In this document: positions 9,454-39,166 of the stretch, piece after piece
Layout: each line of letters opens with the position of its first letter
Numbering within the stretch: position 1 is the first letter of the stretch
NCBI RefSeq assembly: GCF_000178115.2
Contig: NC_014828.1
Span: 2,741,501 to 2,805,500, forward strand
Length of the DNA: 64,000 nt
From: Ethanoligenens harbinense YUAN-3
GTDB taxonomy: Bacteria > Bacillota > Clostridia > Oscillospirales > Ethanoligenentaceae
Direction of reading: 5' to 3'
Notes under the pieces: generated by a model
The model's database searches: none
What the model was told of the DNA's origin: nothing
The model's input: the letters and a program-made list of their open reading frames with translations, nothing else
Translations under genes and position numbers: made by a program

Positions 9454-9705
9454 TCATACATACGGGTCTTCTTCCCCGCCGGGGCGCCTGACGCTCTCCC
9501 GCCGCGTTTCGAACGGTCGCGCCACCACGATCGCACGGCGATAAAAGGCCACCATCCTGTCGATCACCGTTTCCGCGTCTTCTTCCACCAGCAGCTTCTT
9601 GCCGCTCTTGAGCGTGATGACGGTGTCGGGCGTCTCTTCCATGAATTCCACCTCAAAGGGATTGACATAAAACGGCCCGCCGTTCAGCCTGGTGACTCTA
9701 ATCAC
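9454..9705 (-). CDS. flbD: FlbD family flagellar protein
   Basis: This is an 83-residue member of the small FlbD (Bacillus SwrD/YlzI) family, found in fla operons and linked in Bacillus to motor power. The typical start is seen (MIRVTRLNGGPFYVNPFEVEFME), then TPDTVITLKSGKKLLVEE. It begins with GTG after GGGAGGAA. It lies 25 nt after flgE, the same order as in Bacillus. The C-terminal Arg-rich tail (about residues 65-83) is longer than I would expect. Confidence 0.9.
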   Translation of the reverse strand: MIRVTRLNGGPFYVNPFEVEFMEETPDTVITLKSGKKLLVEEDAETVIDRMVAFYRRAIVVARPFETRRESVRRPGGEEDPYV

Positions 9706-9730: not shown

Positions 9731-10711
9731 TTATGAACGCTTCAGGTTGACGATCTCCTCGAGGAGGGAGTCGGCGACGGTAATGACGCGCGAGTTGGCC
9801 TGGAAACCGCGCTGGGTCACGATCATGTTGGTGAACTCCCGGGCCAGATCGACATTGGACTGCTCGAGCGCGCCGGAGATGAGCGTGGTGCTGTTGCCGT
9901 TGCTGGCCTGGATGTAGGTCGGCGAACCGGAGCTGACCGACTGGGTGAAGGAGGTGTTGCCCGCCTGCGACAAACCGCCGTCGTTGGGGAACGTGGCCAG
10001 CGCGACGATGATCGGGTCGCTTGCCGATGCGGTCGTTGCGCCGTTGGACGTGCCGTACTCAAACGTGCCGGTAGAGGAACCGATCGTCCCCGAGATGGTG
10101 CCGTCGCTGTTGATGGTCAGGTCGGAGATGTTGGTGTTCGCCGTGACCGTTACATCACTGGACGTGCTGGTGCCGGCCGCCGTGGGGTGGAAGGTCGCGC
10201 CGATGAGGCTGATGGCGTGCAGGGTGGGTAAGCTGGTCGGATCCGCCTGATAAGCGGCCAGCGAGGTGGCATCCATGCCCATCACATAGTTGCCGTTGGC
10301 ATCCACCAGATAGCCGCTCGCGTTTTTCTGGAAATTACCCACACGGGTGTAATAGTCAGCCACGGTCGCGCCGCTGCTGTTGGTTGTGGAACCTGCCGTA
10401 TGGCTGGCGGAATCGGTGCTGACAATGAAATAGCCCTCGCCGTTGATGAACAGGTTGGTGGGCACATTCGTGGTCGTTTCGCCGGTGGTGCTCATATCCT
10501 TGCTCACGCCGCTGACCTTCACGCCGTAACCGACCTGCGTGGCGTTGGTATTATCCGTGCCGCCCTGGAGGGTCTGGTAGAACAAGTCGCTGAAATCCGT
10601 ACGGCTGGCCTTGAAGCCGTCGGTATTGACGTTGGCGATGTTGTTGCCGATGACATCCATGGCTGTCTGCTGCGCCTGCAGGCCGGTGACTGCTGAATTG
10701 AGTGCTCTCAT
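9731..10711 (-). CDS. flgE: Flagellar hook protein FlgE
   Basis: The product is a flagellar axial protein, most likely the hook subunit. The N-terminal D0 rod motif (MRALNSAVTGLQAQQTAMDV, then NNIANVNTDGFK) and the C-terminal motif (LEQSNVDLAREFTNMIVTQR, ending IVNLKRS) are both present. At 326 residues it is on the short side for FlgE, so the outer D2 domain is probably small or missing. FlgF/FlgG are alternatives by sequence, but the place between flgD and flbD favours the hook protein. Confidence 0.9.
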   Translation of the reverse strand: MRALNSAVTGLQAQQTAMDVIGNNIANVNTDGFKASRTDFSDLFYQTLQGGTDNTNATQVGYGVKVSGVSKDMSTTGETTTNVPTNLFINGEGYFIVSTDSASHTAGSTTNSSGATVADYYTRVGNFQKNASGYLVDANGNYVMGMDATSLAAYQADPTSLPTLHAISLIGATFHPTAAGTSTSSDVTVTANTNISDLTINSDGTISGTIGSSTGTFEYGTSNGATTASASDPIIVALATFPNDGGLSQAGNTSFTQSVSSGSPTYIQASNGNSTTLISGALEQSNVDLAREFTNMIVTQRGFQANSRVITVADSLLEEIVNLKRS

Positions 10712-10824: not shown

Positions 10825-11211
10825 TCATACGATGACGGCGCCGTCGATATTGGTGAAAACGTGGTCTGCCTGCTCGCCCACCGGCATGGCCGTCACCACG
10901 GTCTTGCCGGGCACGTCCACAATGAACGCCAGCCCGTCGAGCAGCACAAGCGAATCCCGCAGGCCGTGGCCCGCCGCCTGCGCCACCGCGCGGCCGAGCT
11001 TCTGCATCTCGCCGCTGTCCAGCCGCACATGGCGGTCGGCCAGCCGCTCCAGCGCATGCCTGGAAAAGCGGACCCCGTTTTCTTCTTCCTGCGCGGCGGC
11101 CAGCGCCTGCGCGAAGGAAACGGAAGCAACCTGCTGCCCCGCCTGCGCCGCCTGTGCCTGGGGACCGACCGGCGACAGCAGGATATTGTTTACCTGAAAC
11201 TCTGCCAACAA
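10825..11211 (-). CDS. Flagellar operon protein (TIGR02530 type)
   Basis: This 128-residue protein belongs to a family known only as a flagellar operon protein that usually sits between flgD and flgE in Firmicutes. The recognisable core is VRFSRHALERLADRHVRLDS, then RAVAQAAGHGLRDSLVLLDG and a C-terminal beta-rich stretch. It starts at one of two adjacent TTG codons (11211 or 11208) behind AAAGGGGGA. No enzyme motif or membrane helix is visible. It may help hook assembly, judged from position only. Confidence 0.8.
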   Translation of the reverse strand: MLAEFQVNNILLSPVGPQAQAAQAGQQVASVSFAQALAAAQEEENGVRFSRHALERLADRHVRLDSGEMQKLGRAVAQAAGHGLRDSLVLLDGLAFIVDVPGKTVVTAMPVGEQADHVFTNIDGAVIV

Positions 11212-11236: not shown

Positions 11237-11707
11237 TCATGCCGAAGTGGACGAGGAGGTGTCCGTGGAGGAACCGGAAGAAGAAACCAGATCGGTCGAT
11301 GTGACGCGCGTCACATCAGTGAGCGGGACCCAGCCGCCGTTGATGTAGCACTGCGGTGTGGAGGAATCACTGAAATCGACCGCCTGCACCACGCCCTCGG
11401 AGGTGGCGCTGACCCCTGTGCTGGCATCGGTCGTGGTGTAGAGCACATCCTTGCCCACCATGGCGGTGCCCGCCTGAATGCCCGCCGTCTGCGCCAGCTT
11501 CTGCGTCTGCTCCACCATGCTGAACTGCGCCATCTGCGCCATGAACTGGCTGTTGTCGGTCGGCTCCAGCGGGTCCTGATACTCAAGCTGCTTGGTCATC
11601 AGTGTGAAGAAATCCGACATGCCAAACGTGCTGCTGGAATCATCGGTGGACAGTGTGGAGGACGCGGCGGGTAAAGAACCCAAGGATGAAATGCTGCTGA
11701 TATCCAT
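11237..11707 (-). CDS. flgD: Flagellar hook capping protein FlgD
   Basis: FlgD caps the growing hook. The 156-residue product has the conserved N-terminal core MSDFFTLMTKQLEYQDPLEP followed by DNSQFMAQMAQFSMVEQTQKL. A short beta-domain remnant (VSATSEGVVQAVDF) and a Ser-rich C-terminal tail follow. It is a short FlgD, without the long Ig/tudor domains of enteric FlgD. GGAGCG precedes the ATG. It is 15 nt after fliK. Confidence 0.93.
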   Translation of the reverse strand: MDISSISSLGSLPAASSTLSTDDSSSTFGMSDFFTLMTKQLEYQDPLEPTDNSQFMAQMAQFSMVEQTQKLAQTAGIQAGTAMVGKDVLYTTTDASTGVSATSEGVVQAVDFSDSSTPQCYINGGWVPLTDVTRVTSTDLVSSSGSSTDTSSSTSA

Positions 11708-11722
11708 ACAAACGCTCCTTTC

Positions 11723-13564
11723 TTAGGCCGTGATGTTGACGAAAGACGCAAAGGCAGGCGCCTGCGTGTCTCCGGAAGGCTGCTCCTGCTGCCGCGCCTG
11801 CTGCCCCTGCTGCCGCGGGTGCGGATTTTGGCCGCTTTGCTGGTATGCGTTCTGCCCGGTCGCGTCGGGCTGGGTATAAGACACCACCGCCTTTTCCACG
11901 GGCACGCCGCTGCTCTGCATGGCGCCTTTCAGGCTTTCAAGCCCCGCGGCGAGCATCTGGCCGGTATGATGGCTATCCGCCACGATTGAGACCGTGAGCG
12001 CGCCGCCCTGTGACACCAGCTTGATGGTGATGCCGCCGAGATCCTCCGGGCTGAGGCGGACGCGCAATTCACTGCGCTGCGCGGCAAACGCGGTCTTCAC
12101 CGCGTCGGCCACCTGCGCGGCCGCGCCCGTGTCGGCCGAAGGCTGCGCCTGTGCCGGCTCCGCCAGCCGGAAAACCGGCTGCGCCGAAACCGCCTGACCC
12201 ACCGGCTGGGCATCGGTACCCCCGGGCAGAGCGCTCCTGGTATCCTGCTCATCGTGCGGGCCGGTCCGGCTCCCGCTGTCGGAGGCATCCGACGCTTCGT
12301 CCGCAGCCGTCGGCGAAGCCACACCGATACCGGATACTGCCGCCTGCATCTGCGCCGGGCCGCCTGTCTGCACCGGTTTGGCACCCGGCGAAGCCTGCAC
12401 GGAAACAGACGCCGCAAGCGTCGTACTGCCGGCAGACGGCAGCACAAGTGGCTGCGGGAGCGCCGCTTGTTCGGTGCCCGCTGCCGGCGGGGCCGCGTCC
12501 TGTGCCGCTGTGGCGATGGTTGGAACACTGCCCTGCACGGCTGACGCCTGCTCGGTGGATACGGCCGCCGGAATCGCCTGCCCGTTTTGCGCCGCCGTGG
12601 CGACGGCTGGGACGCCGCTCTGCACGGCTGACGCCTGCTCGGTGGATACGGCCGCCGGAATCGCCCGCCCGTTTTGCGCCGCCGTGGCGACGGTTGGGAC
12701 GCCGCTCTGCACGGCTGCCGCCTGCTCGGTGGATACGGCCGCTGGAATCGCCCGCCCGTTTTGCGCCGCCGTGTCGACGGCTGGGACGCCGCTCTGCACG
12801 GCTGCCGTCTGCTCGGTGGATACGGCCGCCGGAATCGCCTGCCCGTTTTGCGCCGCCGTGGCGACGGCTGGGACGCCGCTCTGCACAGCTGCCGTCTGCT
12901 CGGTGGATACGGCCGCCGGAATCGCCTGCCCGCTTTGCACCGCCGTGGCAACGGTTGGGACGCCGCTCTGCACGGCTGCCGTCTGCTCGGTGGATACGGC
13001 CGCCGGAATCGCCTGCCCGCTTTGCACCGCCGTGGCGACGGCTGCCGCCTGTGAAACGGCAGTGCTTACAGGCGCCGCCTGCGCGGGCTTCGGCGCTGCG
13101 GGTACGGAAAACACCTCTCCGCCCTGCGCCGCCGAAGCCGCGACGGGCAGGCCGGTTTGCACGGATGACACGGGCAGGCCGGCAACGGCCGCCTGCATGG
13201 CGAAAACCGACCCAGCCGCAACGGGAACAGTCGTGCTGGAAGCGGCCTTGCCTCCCTGGGCCGCCTCACCCTGCGCGGAAGCCGCGCCGGACGGCGTGAC
13301 CGCCTGTGCAAAGAACGGAAGCCCCATCATCTGCAAAACGAGCTGTGCAGCGGTCTCCTGCTTTTGCGCGGAAGGCCGGCCGCCATCACCGCCCGCGTCT
13401 GCACCCGTGGAGGGCGACTCACCCTGCGCACCCTCGGCGGCCTGCCCTCCGGCTCCCTGCGGAAACAACAGTGAGGCGAAATCCGCCGCGCCGCCCTGCG
13501 CCGCCGCCGTACCGGTATTCCCGTTCGTCTGGACGGCTGTCTGCGTTACATTGGTTATCTGCAT
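11723..13564 (-). CDS. fliK: Flagellar hook-length control protein FliK with tandem repeats
   Basis: FliK is the secreted ruler that sets hook length and triggers the FlhB substrate switch. The start is ATG 13564 (MQITNVTQ), seven bases after AAAGGGGGTG, giving about 613 residues. The C-terminal Flg_hook domain is seen in LRVRLSPEDLGGITIKLVSQ (about residues 510-530), followed by a Gln-rich tail. The middle is low-complexity Ala/Val/Gln/Ser and holds a 29-residue tandem repeat, described separately. It is about twice the length of many clostridial FliK proteins. Confidence 0.93.
   Translation of the reverse strand: MQITNVTQTAVQTNGNTGTAAAQGGAADFASLLFPQGAGGQAAEGAQGESPSTGADAGGDGGRPSAQKQETAAQLVLQMMGLPFFAQAVTPSGAASAQGEAAQGGKAASSTTVPVAAGSVFAMQAAVAGLPVSSVQTGLPVAASAAQGGEVFSVPAAPKPAQAAPVSTAVSQAAAVATAVQSGQAIPAAVSTEQTAAVQSGVPTVATAVQSGQAIPAAVSTEQTAAVQSGVPAVATAAQNGQAIPAAVSTEQTAAVQSGVPAVDTAAQNGRAIPAAVSTEQAAAVQSGVPTVATAAQNGRAIPAAVSTEQASAVQSGVPAVATAAQNGQAIPAAVSTEQASAVQGSVPTIATAAQDAAPPAAGTEQAALPQPLVLPSAGSTTLAASVSVQASPGAKPVQTGGPAQMQAAVSGIGVASPTAADEASDASDSGSRTGPHDEQDTRSALPGGTDAQPVGQAVSAQPVFRLAEPAQAQPSADTGAAAQVADAVKTAFAAQRSELRVRLSPEDLGGITIKLVSQGGALTVSIVADSHHTGQMLAAGLESLKGAMQSSGVPVEKAVVSYTQPDATGQNAYQQSGQNPHPRQQGQQARQQEQPSGDTQAPAFASFVNITA
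12551..13042 (-). repeat. 87-bp in-frame tandem repeat in fliK
   Basis: Near-identical 87-bp units begin at 12551, 12638, 12725, 12812 and 12899, with a sixth, partial unit from 12986. Each encodes 29 residues of the form AAVSTEQxxAVQSGVPxVxT followed by AxQxGxAIP. Units differ at only a few positions, so the expansion looks recent. Because 87 is divisible by three, gain or loss of a unit keeps the reading frame. Confidence 0.95.
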
Positions 13565-13596
13565 CTTTTTCACCCCCTTTCGCCGCGCTCCCGGTC

Positions 13597-14034
13597 TCAC
13601 CAGTGGAGACGCGCCGCAATCTGTTCTTCGATCTCTTTTTCTGTTTGTATCTTCTGTTCCCGGTGATAGAGCCGGATCTGTTTTTCATAAAGCGCGTCGA
13701 TGGTCTTGCGCGCCTGCATCTTTGTCATCAGCAACTCTCTGGCCTGCTCGACGGTTTCAGTCTGCTCCCGTATGCGCGCGGCGTTGTCTTTCCTGCGCGC
13801 CCGCAGCTCCGCCAGATAGGACTGGATACGCATCATCTCCGCCGGAACGGCGCCCGCACCGCAGACCCGCAGATACCGCGCCGACCACTGCCGCTCGGCC
13901 TCCCGCAGTGCTTCCGCCTCCTGCTCCAGGAGGCGCAGGGCATGCTGCTCGCGCGCAAGCACGTCTTTCTGCTCGCGTTCCGCATATTGCCGCAGATTGC
14001 GCACCGGCGCAAGCCGGAATTTGAATCGCTGCAT
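13597..14034 (-). CDS. fliJ: Flagellar export chaperone FliJ
   Basis: FliJ is the coiled-coil stalk of the flagellar export ATPase. The 145-residue product begins MQRFKFRLAPVRNLRQYAER, the typical FliJ start, and is almost entirely charged heptad-like helix with no membrane segment, ending EIEEQIAARLHW. GAGGAGG precedes the ATG. It lies between fliI and fliK as in other fla operons. Confidence 0.92.
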   Translation of the reverse strand: MQRFKFRLAPVRNLRQYAEREQKDVLAREQHALRLLEQEAEALREAERQWSARYLRVCGAGAVPAEMMRIQSYLAELRARRKDNAARIREQTETVEQARELLMTKMQARKTIDALYEKQIRLYHREQKIQTEKEIEEQIAARLHW

Positions 14035-14049: not shown

Positions 14050-15351
14050 TCACGCCAGCGCCTGCCGCATGGCGTCGATCGTCCGGCTGAACGAAAACGG
14101 CTCGCCCACACGCTGGCAAAGGAATGTTTCGATGGCCTTGTGGTACCGGATGGCCGTGTCCACTTCCTCGCTGCTGCCCGGCTTATAGGCCCCGATGCTG
14201 ATGAGGTCGGCATAGTTTTCATAGGTGGCCATCAGGCGGCGCATCTTTCCGGCCAGCTCCATATGGGCGGGATCGGCGATATCCGGCATCAGGCGGCTGA
14301 TGCTGGCCAGCACGTCGATGGCGGGATAATGATTCCGCATCGCCAGTGCGCGGGTGAGCACGATGTGCCCGTCCAGGATGCCGCGCACGGTGTCGGCCAC
14401 CGGCTCATTCATGTCGTCGCCCTCCACCAGCACCGTGTAGATGCCGGTGATGGAGCCTTTATTAAAATTGCCGGAGCGCTCCAACAGCTTGGGCATGACG
14501 GCGAAGATGGAGGGCGTGTAACCGCGCGCCACGGGCGGCTCGCCGGTGGCCAGGCCGATTTCGCGCTGCGCCATGGCAAAACGGGTGAGGCTGTCCATCA
14601 TCAGCATGACGTTTTTGCCTTTGTCACGGAAAAACTCCGCTACCGCCGTGGCCACCAGCGCGCATTTGACACGGGCCATGGCCGGGCGGTCGGAGGTGGC
14701 CACCACCAGCACGGTGCGCGCCATGCCCTCGGCCTGAAGGTCTTTCTCCATGAAATCCCGCAGTTCGCGCCCGCGCTCGCCCACCAGCGCGATGACGTTG
14801 ACGTCGGCCTGCGCGTTGCGGGCGATCATGCCCATGAGCGTGGATTTGCCCACGCCGCTGCCCGCAAAAATGCCGATGCGCTGCCCTTTGCCGCAGGTGA
14901 GCAGCCCGTCGATCACCTTTACACCCAGCGGCATGCGCTCTTTGATGCGCGGCCGCTGCAGCGGGTTGGCGGGCTCGACGTCGATGAGGTAATGCGCCTC
15001 GGACGCGATGGGACCCTTGCCGTCGATGGGTGTGCCCACACCGTCAAGCACACGGCCGACCATATCCATGCCGACCGGCACATAAAACGAGTGGCCGGTG
15101 GATTCCACCACGCTGCCGGGGCCGACACCCTGCAGGTTGTCATACGGCATCAGAAGCATACTTTTGTCCCGGAAGCCGACCACCTCGGCCATCACCGGCC
15201 TGCCGCCCGTGTTGGGAAAAATGCGGCAGACCTCGCCGATGCGCACCGCGGGGCCCACCGATTCCACCGACAGGCCGGTCACACGCTCTACCCTGCCGCG
15301 GCTGACGGTGAGATCGGCCGCGCGGATCGTTTCAATGGCCTGCTGCAGCAT
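14050..15351 (-). CDS. fliI: Flagellar export ATPase FliI
   Basis: FliI is the soluble F1-beta-like ATPase that energises export. The 433-residue product carries the Walker A motif GIFAGSGVGKST (about 157-168), the family motif LVGERGREL, Walker B in NVMLMMDSLTRFAMAQREIG, and PVARGYTPSIF. GGAGGGG precedes the ATG. The gene overlaps the end of fliH by 20 nt. Confidence 0.97.
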   Translation of the reverse strand: MLQQAIETIRAADLTVSRGRVERVTGLSVESVGPAVRIGEVCRIFPNTGGRPVMAEVVGFRDKSMLLMPYDNLQGVGPGSVVESTGHSFYVPVGMDMVGRVLDGVGTPIDGKGPIASEAHYLIDVEPANPLQRPRIKERMPLGVKVIDGLLTCGKGQRIGIFAGSGVGKSTLMGMIARNAQADVNVIALVGERGRELRDFMEKDLQAEGMARTVLVVATSDRPAMARVKCALVATAVAEFFRDKGKNVMLMMDSLTRFAMAQREIGLATGEPPVARGYTPSIFAVMPKLLERSGNFNKGSITGIYTVLVEGDDMNEPVADTVRGILDGHIVLTRALAMRNHYPAIDVLASISRLMPDIADPAHMELAGKMRRLMATYENYADLISIGAYKPGSSEEVDTAIRYHKAIETFLCQRVGEPFSFSRTIDAMRQALA

Positions 15352-37786: not shown

Positions 37787-38869
37787 TCAGTTGGCGGCAC
37801 CGATGTCGTGGCCGAGGTCGCAGGTGTAGGCAAAGAGCACCGTGTCTCCGCTTTTGAGCGTATACTGCGACACCCCATAGCCGGGGAACGTGCCGTTGAC
37901 CGCATAGTCCCATCCACTGAGCGGCCCCGCGTCGAACTCATAGAGGTTGTTGATGCCCTCGATGTATTCGCCTGCGGCCGAACCTTTATGCTCCATCTGG
38001 ATACCGTTTTTTTCGCAGACGGACACAAGCAGGTCGTAGACCGTCGCACCCGGCTTGACCGCCATGGAAGTTTCCGGCAGAATGACACCGTTTGCAGGCA
38101 CCACGCGGTGGTCCTGCTTGTTGGCGGAAAGGCTGCTCCAATTCTGCACGGCCGTGTCACAGCGGATGGAGATGTTCACCCGGATGGTCTGCGGGGCGGG
38201 CGCAGAGCTCACCGGCATTTTCGGCGCGGACGAGACCGGCGCGCTTGATGCCGGCACGCTTGATGCCGGCACGCTTGATGCCGGCACGCTTGATGCCGGC
38301 ACGCTCGAAACCGCCGGCGGCGCAGCGGACGACACCGCATCCGCCTGCACCTGCGCGAGCAGGTAGGGACCCGTGTTTTCGGATACCCGGATGGTGGCGG
38401 CACCGTTCACCACCTGCGCCGTGCCCGCCTGCCACAGGGCGCCGGGCTTCCCGGCGTAAAACGGATAACTGCCGTCCGCCCAGCCCTTTCCCACCGTGAT
38501 GCGCAGGGAGGCCGCGCCGGGATAGCTTCCCTTTTGCTCGAGCGTAATCTGCCCGTAGGTCTGTGCGGTATCCGTGCCGTTCGGTGATACCGTCACCGGT
38601 TTATAGGAAATATGCAGATCAGCTTCGGCCGGTTTGCGGATATCCGGCCCGACGAATGTCCACGAATAGGAAACGCCGCCGCTCTTGCCGTTGTAGATAG
38701 CGATGCCTCCGCTTTGTTGCAGCCGCTGGAAATCGGCTTTGCGGACCACGCCATTCGCCGGGACGGAAGCAACCGTCGTCCTGCTTCTGGTGTTTGCGGT
38801 GCAGCCCGCAAACACCGCGGTGCAGGCGACCAGCAACGCGAACCAGATGGCCATCACGCGCTTTTTCAA
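37787..38869 (-). CDS. DUF4430 lipoprotein of the corrinoid ECF system
   Basis: This secreted lipoprotein, about 360 residues, starts at TTG 38869 (MKKRVMAIWFALLVACTAVF, then AGC; lipobox Cys about 23) with GGGGATGA upstream. A beta-rich domain (about 45-175) is joined by a SVPAS-repeat linker to a C-terminal DUF4430 domain, seen in YEFDAGPLSGWDYAVNGTFP and GYGVSQYTLKSGDTVLFAYT. DUF4430 resembles the transcobalamin C-terminal domain. It directly follows the cobalamin riboswitch, so surface capture of corrinoids is likely. Confidence 0.85.
   Translation of the reverse strand: MKKRVMAIWFALLVACTAVFAGCTANTRSRTTVASVPANGVVRKADFQRLQQSGGIAIYNGKSGGVSYSWTFVGPDIRKPAEADLHISYKPVTVSPNGTDTAQTYGQITLEQKGSYPGAASLRITVGKGWADGSYPFYAGKPGALWQAGTAQVVNGAATIRVSENTGPYLLAQVQADAVSSAAPPAVSSVPASSVPASSVPASSVPASSAPVSSAPKMPVSSAPAPQTIRVNISIRCDTAVQNWSSLSANKQDHRVVPANGVILPETSMAVKPGATVYDLLVSVCEKNGIQMEHKGSAAGEYIEGINNLYEFDAGPLSGWDYAVNGTFPGYGVSQYTLKSGDTVLFAYTCDLGHDIGAAN
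38243..38306 (-). repeat. 15-bp tandem repeat encoding a SVPAS linker
   Basis: The unit GCTTGATGCCGGCAC recurs about four times in register, with edges that diverge. It encodes the PASSV pentapeptide repeat that links the two domains of the DUF4430 lipoprotein. Confidence 0.9.
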
Positions 38870-38907
38870 AACATCATCCCCATAATCTGTCGGCCTTCGA
38901 GTTTGCA

Positions 38908-38935
38908 AATAAAAAAGGCCGCGCGCGGCGGCCCC
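38908..38935 (-). terminator. Riboswitch-controlled terminator before the corrinoid operon
   Basis: On the minus strand GGCCGC-CGCGC-GCGGCC is followed by TTTTTTATTT. It lies between the cobalamin aptamer and the lipoprotein start. A second hairpin, GCTTCCCGCGC with GCGTGGGAAGC (about 38938-38966), just before it may take part in the switch. Confidence 0.85.
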
Positions 38936-39003
38936 GATGCTTCCCACGCTTTTAGCGCGGGAAGCAAGCAGCCGCCTTTCCTCCGAAAGAAGCTCTGTTC
39001 CAC

Positions 39004-39166
39004 GCGATGCGGCAGGTCTCCTGACTCGAATTCTTCCGCCGCCCCGGCCTTCCCGATCTCCCGGTGGCACAAACGGAGCGTTGTCCTTCTCACAGTAGCG
39101 GAGGCTGTCACGGTTTCGCACCGTGTTCCCTTGTTTCCCGCATGCACGCGCATGCGACCGCATCGC
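39004..39166 (-). ncRNA. Cobalamin riboswitch
   Basis: On the minus strand the aptamer is closed by a 9-bp P1 (GCGATGCGG with CCGCATCGC). It contains AAGGGAACACGGTGCGAAAC, GACAGCCTCCGCTACTGTGA, GCCACCGGG and the B12 box GAGTCAGGAGACCTGCC. These are hallmarks of the adenosylcobalamin class. Bound cobalamin should favour the downstream terminator and shut off the importer operon. Confidence 0.95.

Follow-up and report, generated by a model that had tools for sequence, protein, structure and literature searches.

The flagellar hook-length control gene fliK of Ethanoligenens harbinense YUAN-3 contains six full copies of an 87-bp unit in tandem, and we consider it probable that the disordered middle of the FliK ruler was lengthened by stepwise, in-frame duplication of the 29-residue segment that this unit encodes. 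The array lies in a stretch of 64,000 nucleotides, the whole of which was analysed and is referred to here as the window (Table 1). A sequence-only reading had assigned the array-bearing gene to fliK, and this assignment is confirmed by family search, fold match and neighbouring genes. The product matches the Pfam family Flg_hook (PF02120) at residues 488-567 with 54 bits against a cut-off of 29.8 (E = 1.5e-14), and in an AlphaFold model built with 28 aligned orthologues the FliKC core is predicted with a pLDDT of about 95 and the order H-E-E-E-H-H-E. When this model was searched with Foldseek, the best match was the FliK C-terminal domain 2RRL (E = 3.4e-6), followed by the PscP switch domain 5CUK (E = 1.4e-4). 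Outside residues ~481-567 the protein is predicted to be disordered, including the array (pLDDT about 38-50), and its N-terminal region is of low complexity, with F29 as the sole invariant residue there in the 28-sequence alignment. The gene sits among hook and export genes in the order fliI-fliJ-fliK-flgD-TIGR02530-flgE, i.e. between fliJ/fliI and flgD/flgE, and motA/motP (assigned by eye, without family search) is also found in the window. The start of fliK is placed at the ATG at 13564, while an upstream GTG at 13600 is a possible alternative. MotP, the hook-basal body protein and FliI have been detected as proteins in E. harbinense YUAN-3 (PMC6598285), and the flagellar genes of the window, the flbD-like frame included, are spaced exactly as given for that strain in the same paper.

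Table 1. Coordinates of fliK, its repeat units and its neighbours in the window, and of two further array-bearing FliK frames (given with their locus).
Feature	Coordinates	Strand	Evidence
fliK, flagellar hook-length control protein, 613 aa	11723..13564	-	Pfam Flg_hook, operon, fold match
FliKC core (T3S specificity-switch domain), aa 482-567	11864..12121	-	Pfam, AlphaFold, Foldseek
Tandem array, six full 87-bp (29-aa) units, aa 176-349	12518..13039	-	Unit alignment, TRF
Unit 0: VATAVQSGQAIPAAVSTEQTAAVQSGVPT	12953..13039	-	Unit alignment
Unit 1: VATAVQSGQAIPAAVSTEQTAAVQSGVPA	12866..12952	-	Unit alignment
Unit 2: VATAAQNGQAIPAAVSTEQTAAVQSGVPA	12779..12865	-	Unit alignment
Unit 3: VDTAAQNGRAIPAAVSTEQAAAVQSGVPT	12692..12778	-	Unit alignment
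Unit 4: VATAAQNGRAIPAAVSTEQASAVQSGVPA	12605..12691	-	Unit alignment
Unit 5, most diverged: VATAAQNGQAIPAAVSTEQASAVQGSVPT	12518..12604	-	Unit alignment
flbD-like frame	9454-9705
flgE-type hook protein	9731..10711	-	Family search
TIGR02530 flagellar protein	10825..11211	-	Family search
flgD, hook cap	11237..11707	-	Family search
fliJ	13597..14034	-	43 bits, just below curated cut-off 50.45, and operon position
fliI, export ATPase	14050..15351	-	Family search
G002 FliK with 26-aa array	L003:1111-2946	+
G698 FliK, 1057 aa	L207:335-3505	+

The array is the single dominant one of the window, and TRF reported it at 12504-13044 with a period of 87, 6.2 copies, 94% matches, 0% indels and a score of 914, compared to a top score of 78 among 300 codon-shuffled fliK genes. 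An in-frame 87-bp tandem array on the minus strand within fliK, as first described, is thereby upheld. The 87-bp period stood as well, whereas the count of five full units and one partial unit did not: six full units are present, and the lower number arose because the interval originally assigned to the array, 12551-13042, begins inside the sixth. In the register used here (VATA..GVPx), the array is flanked on both sides by a few further matching bases. The units had also been called nearly identical, which is apt insofar as pairs share 87-97% identity, with 3-11 differences in 87 bases and 1-7 in 29 residues, but no pair is identical. The unit is rich in Ala, Gln, Thr and Val and includes two prolines and two glycines; its length is a multiple of three and it is free of stops. 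The array is placed in the predicted disordered region, N-terminal to the confident FliKC fold. A search of the 3,008,576-bp genome with a 30-base core of the unit, tolerating up to 3 mismatches, gave six matches, each within the fliK array, and no second copy of the array was found in plasmid or viral contig collections or in the congeneric assembly G001.

Fourteen columns vary across the six units, and shared variants form contiguous blocks of neighbouring units: units 0-1 share those at columns 13 and 19, units 3-4 that at column 25, units 3-5 that at column 57 and units 4-5 that at column 60. Such blocks argue for growth of the array by stepwise duplication. The orderly block pattern, by which the units can be told apart, also bears on the accuracy of the unit count. 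A short-read assembly can collapse or miscount an array of 522 bp; given these variants and a genome that forms a single contig, we regard such an error as highly improbable. With respect to age, the array had been proposed to be young, a description that is weakly supported. Its mean pS of 0.069, as opposed to about 0.39 in the array of a sister genus (G002, see below), makes it the younger of the two, yet it is not fresh, since no two units are separated by fewer than 3 differences in 87 bases and synonymous divergence averages about 7%.

Mean pN is likewise 0.069, and the resulting pN/pS of 1.00 (all unit pairs) means that the unit residues show no selection signal; with small counts, this is compatible with neutrality and not proof of it. 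With synonymous and replacement differences equally frequent, conservation appears to be stronger for the length and frame of the unit than for its residues. The same ratio, as well as the predicted disorder of the segment, would fit neutral drift in a tolerant linker, where the array arose incidentally as low-complexity, GC-rich sequence was duplicated, its number and presence are unselected, and any shift in the hook is small and inconsequential. We take this to be a real possibility, against which it counts that all six copies keep the frame and the unit length exactly and are free of indels. Identical stretches of 62-78 bp are shared between units and leave room for recombination, and homologous recombination or slippage between units could add or remove whole units with the frame kept. 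Such stretches could even support a contingency device, the strong form of the earlier suggestion of population variation, in which frequent changes of unit number in populations would provide mixed hook lengths for selection. For the array studied here we find this unlikely, as it holds no identical units, so that 3 or more substitutions per 87 bp have accumulated since the number of units last changed on this lineage.

FliK is among the few cases where the length of a protein directly sets the size of a cell structure. Salmonella FliK variants of 363-785 aa produce hooks of 42-135 nm, at 0.2 nm per residue, and in this bacterium there is a hook length that is optimal for motility (PMC6126814); such an optimum speaks against a linker whose length drifts without consequence. 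The Salmonella linker is part of the ruler, but its deletion also loosens control, and the loose and uneven effect of deletions within it is a point against the mechanism favoured below (PMC6972891). A spontaneous duplication inside Salmonella fliK was moreover selected as a suppressor (PMC6972891), so internal duplications of this gene do occur and are tolerated. In the mechanism that we favour, FliK would be exported through the growing hook, and the array would add contour length between the N-terminal part, retained at the hook tip or channel, and a C-terminal part in contact with FlhB. The added contour length would postpone the switch to filament export and hence give a longer hook, and the residues of the unit would matter little provided that the spacer stays soluble, unfolded and exportable. 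Assuming the Salmonella slope, which was measured on helical YscP inserts and from which the rise of a unit bearing Pro and Gly may differ, one 29-aa unit would correspond to ~5.8 nm and the array to about 35 nm. With full extension (about 0.37 nm per residue), a unit could span up to about 10.7 nm, and part of the array could also serve as plain linker and not as ruler. The earlier proposal that gain or loss of a unit would shift hook length in fixed steps, with the frame intact, is thus a sound expectation, considering the stop-free unit length divisible by three, the 0.2 nm per residue of FliK and the repeat variation of YscP (see below).

Three other genomes of the host family were sampled. 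In one of them, from another genus (G002), a 26-aa unit is repeated 5.7 times at residues 180-327 of a 612-aa FliK frame. This array is also in frame and occupies the same position in the protein as the 29-aa array, but the unit is different and the array is older. The 29-aa and 26-aa units aligned no better than shuffled ones (p = 0.20 for protein and 0.052 for DNA), which favours independent origins; alternatively, one ancestral array, rewritten by turnover, may lie behind both. Two observations on this relative speak against neutral drift, namely the pN/pS of 0.40 in its array and the near-equal FliK length of the two array-bearing family members (613 versus about 607 aa, n = 2). A third genus (G003, L006) instead lends weight to drift, as its 521-aa FliK frame is without a comparable array and contains only a weak 18-bp repeat. 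In the congeneric assembly G001, which is 62% complete, no fliK was detected, and its FliI matches were weak, of the ATPase family, with 27-35% identity.

In an order-wide and FliI-anchored set, TRF arrays (period of at least 30, score of at least 80) were present in 11 of 142 Flg_hook frames, as compared with 6 of 448 other frames of at least 300 aa at these loci (Fisher p = 3.6e-4), a rough count in that it pools canonical FliK with a second type of Flg_hook protein, is unmatched for composition and includes one locus (L066) whose period is not divisible by three. Seventy further loci from the phylum (the 30 best-scoring, 20 picked for a long frame and 20 of mixed length) gave three arrays, one of which (L223) is the same as that of L046. 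The FliK of a distant member of the Bacillota (G698, locus L207) resembles the one described here in carrying an in-frame array in mid-protein, and differs in having 12 units of 48 aa and a total of 1057 aa. Four adjacent 144-bp units of this gene are identical in DNA, so that its array is truly recent, and it makes a stronger case of the phenomenon than the array of the window. Such recent turnover elsewhere is a point in favour of a contingency device. The 48-aa unit is charged and partly helix-like, and it is missing from the 506-aa FliK of a congener (L247). Among 206 distinct Flg_hook frames with a median of 497.5, the FliK of E. harbinense stands at the 85th length percentile, a conservative figure because the set is enriched for long frames, and without the array its 439 aa would rank at the 26th. 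Linker length varies widely over these frames, which again is consistent with drift.

The variety of units is informative for yet another explanation, i.e. that they are functional repeats which bind FlgE, FlgD or the export gate and whose sequence was under selection, with length following as a by-product. Salmonella FliKN does bind FlgD and FlgE (PMC6972891). We nevertheless consider this very unlikely, as the 26-aa and 48-aa units differ in sequence from the unit studied here (p = 0.20 for 29 versus 26 aa), the pN/pS of the latter is 1.0, and the array is absent from other FliKs. That unrelated lineages carry units of their own suggests instead that the ruler segment needs composition and length, not sequence.

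Compared to Salmonella FliK, the protein has the same C-terminal switch domain, in sequence and fold, the same operon context and a disordered, proline-containing middle, but it comprises 613 and not 405 aa, holds the six-unit array in its middle and has an N-terminal region that is not alignable. A precedent for natural variation in repeat number is YscP of Y. enterocolitica, in which repeats of 14, 25 and 46 aa vary in number, giving proteins of 452, 515 and 538 aa whose size is reflected in the length of the needle (PMC3469391). The tuning of a type III ruler by repeat number is therefore an already known idea, and the natural variability of YscP likewise favours a contingency device. As compared through the published work and not by sequence, YscP and the present FliK are both type III secretion rulers lengthened by in-frame repeats, and the six 29-aa units lie, as in YscP, within the ruler region. 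YscP, however, is an injectisome ruler with several repeat types that vary among strains, whereas we describe one uninterrupted repeat type in a flagellar ruler of one strain. Periscope proteins (PMC9704523) also have a length set by the number of near-identical tandem repeats, but theirs are folded repeats of surface-attached adhesins, while the FliK array is a segment of an exported ruler, predicted to be disordered, and Pfam indicated no anchor domain in this protein.

Tandem arrays in a natural FliK were not described in the literature that we found, where coverage of subscription journals, including the primary ruler papers, was thin; that arrays recur in FliK, each lineage with an unrelated unit of its own, is apparently unreported. 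It is because of this recurrence that we find the FliK arrays moderately interesting, and the FliK ruler seems to have been extended repeatedly through duplication of a short unit. More tentatively, the arrays may constitute a recurrent hook-length knob in Bacillota, for which a spacer unit is invented independently and its number changed by recombination until a selected length is converged upon, a possibility about which we are doubtful. The natural series of 6 x 29, 5.7 x 26 and 12 x 48 residues provides material to ask if repeat number tunes hook length.

A few further observations concern related frames and other parts of the window. The second type of Flg_hook protein (L156, L163, L164, L168 and L170) occurs mostly in one Oscillospirales family (f2); in all five the domain is preceded by long Pro/Gly/Ala-rich tandem arrays, several have a distinct N-terminal region, and in several genomes such a protein is found beside a canonical FliK. 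In the draft genome G002, a FliI match (L175) contains one in-frame TAG, due to either a sequencing error or a broken gene. A plus-strand frame of 548 aa, antisense to fliK and fliJ (12378-14024), was set aside as a gene, since the stop-free 87-bp repeat keeps this frame open across every copy. Finally, a 15-bp array of 4.7 copies (38236-38305, minus strand, 98% identical) encodes SSVPA pentapeptides within a secreted-lipoprotein-like frame of 458 aa (37787-39163).
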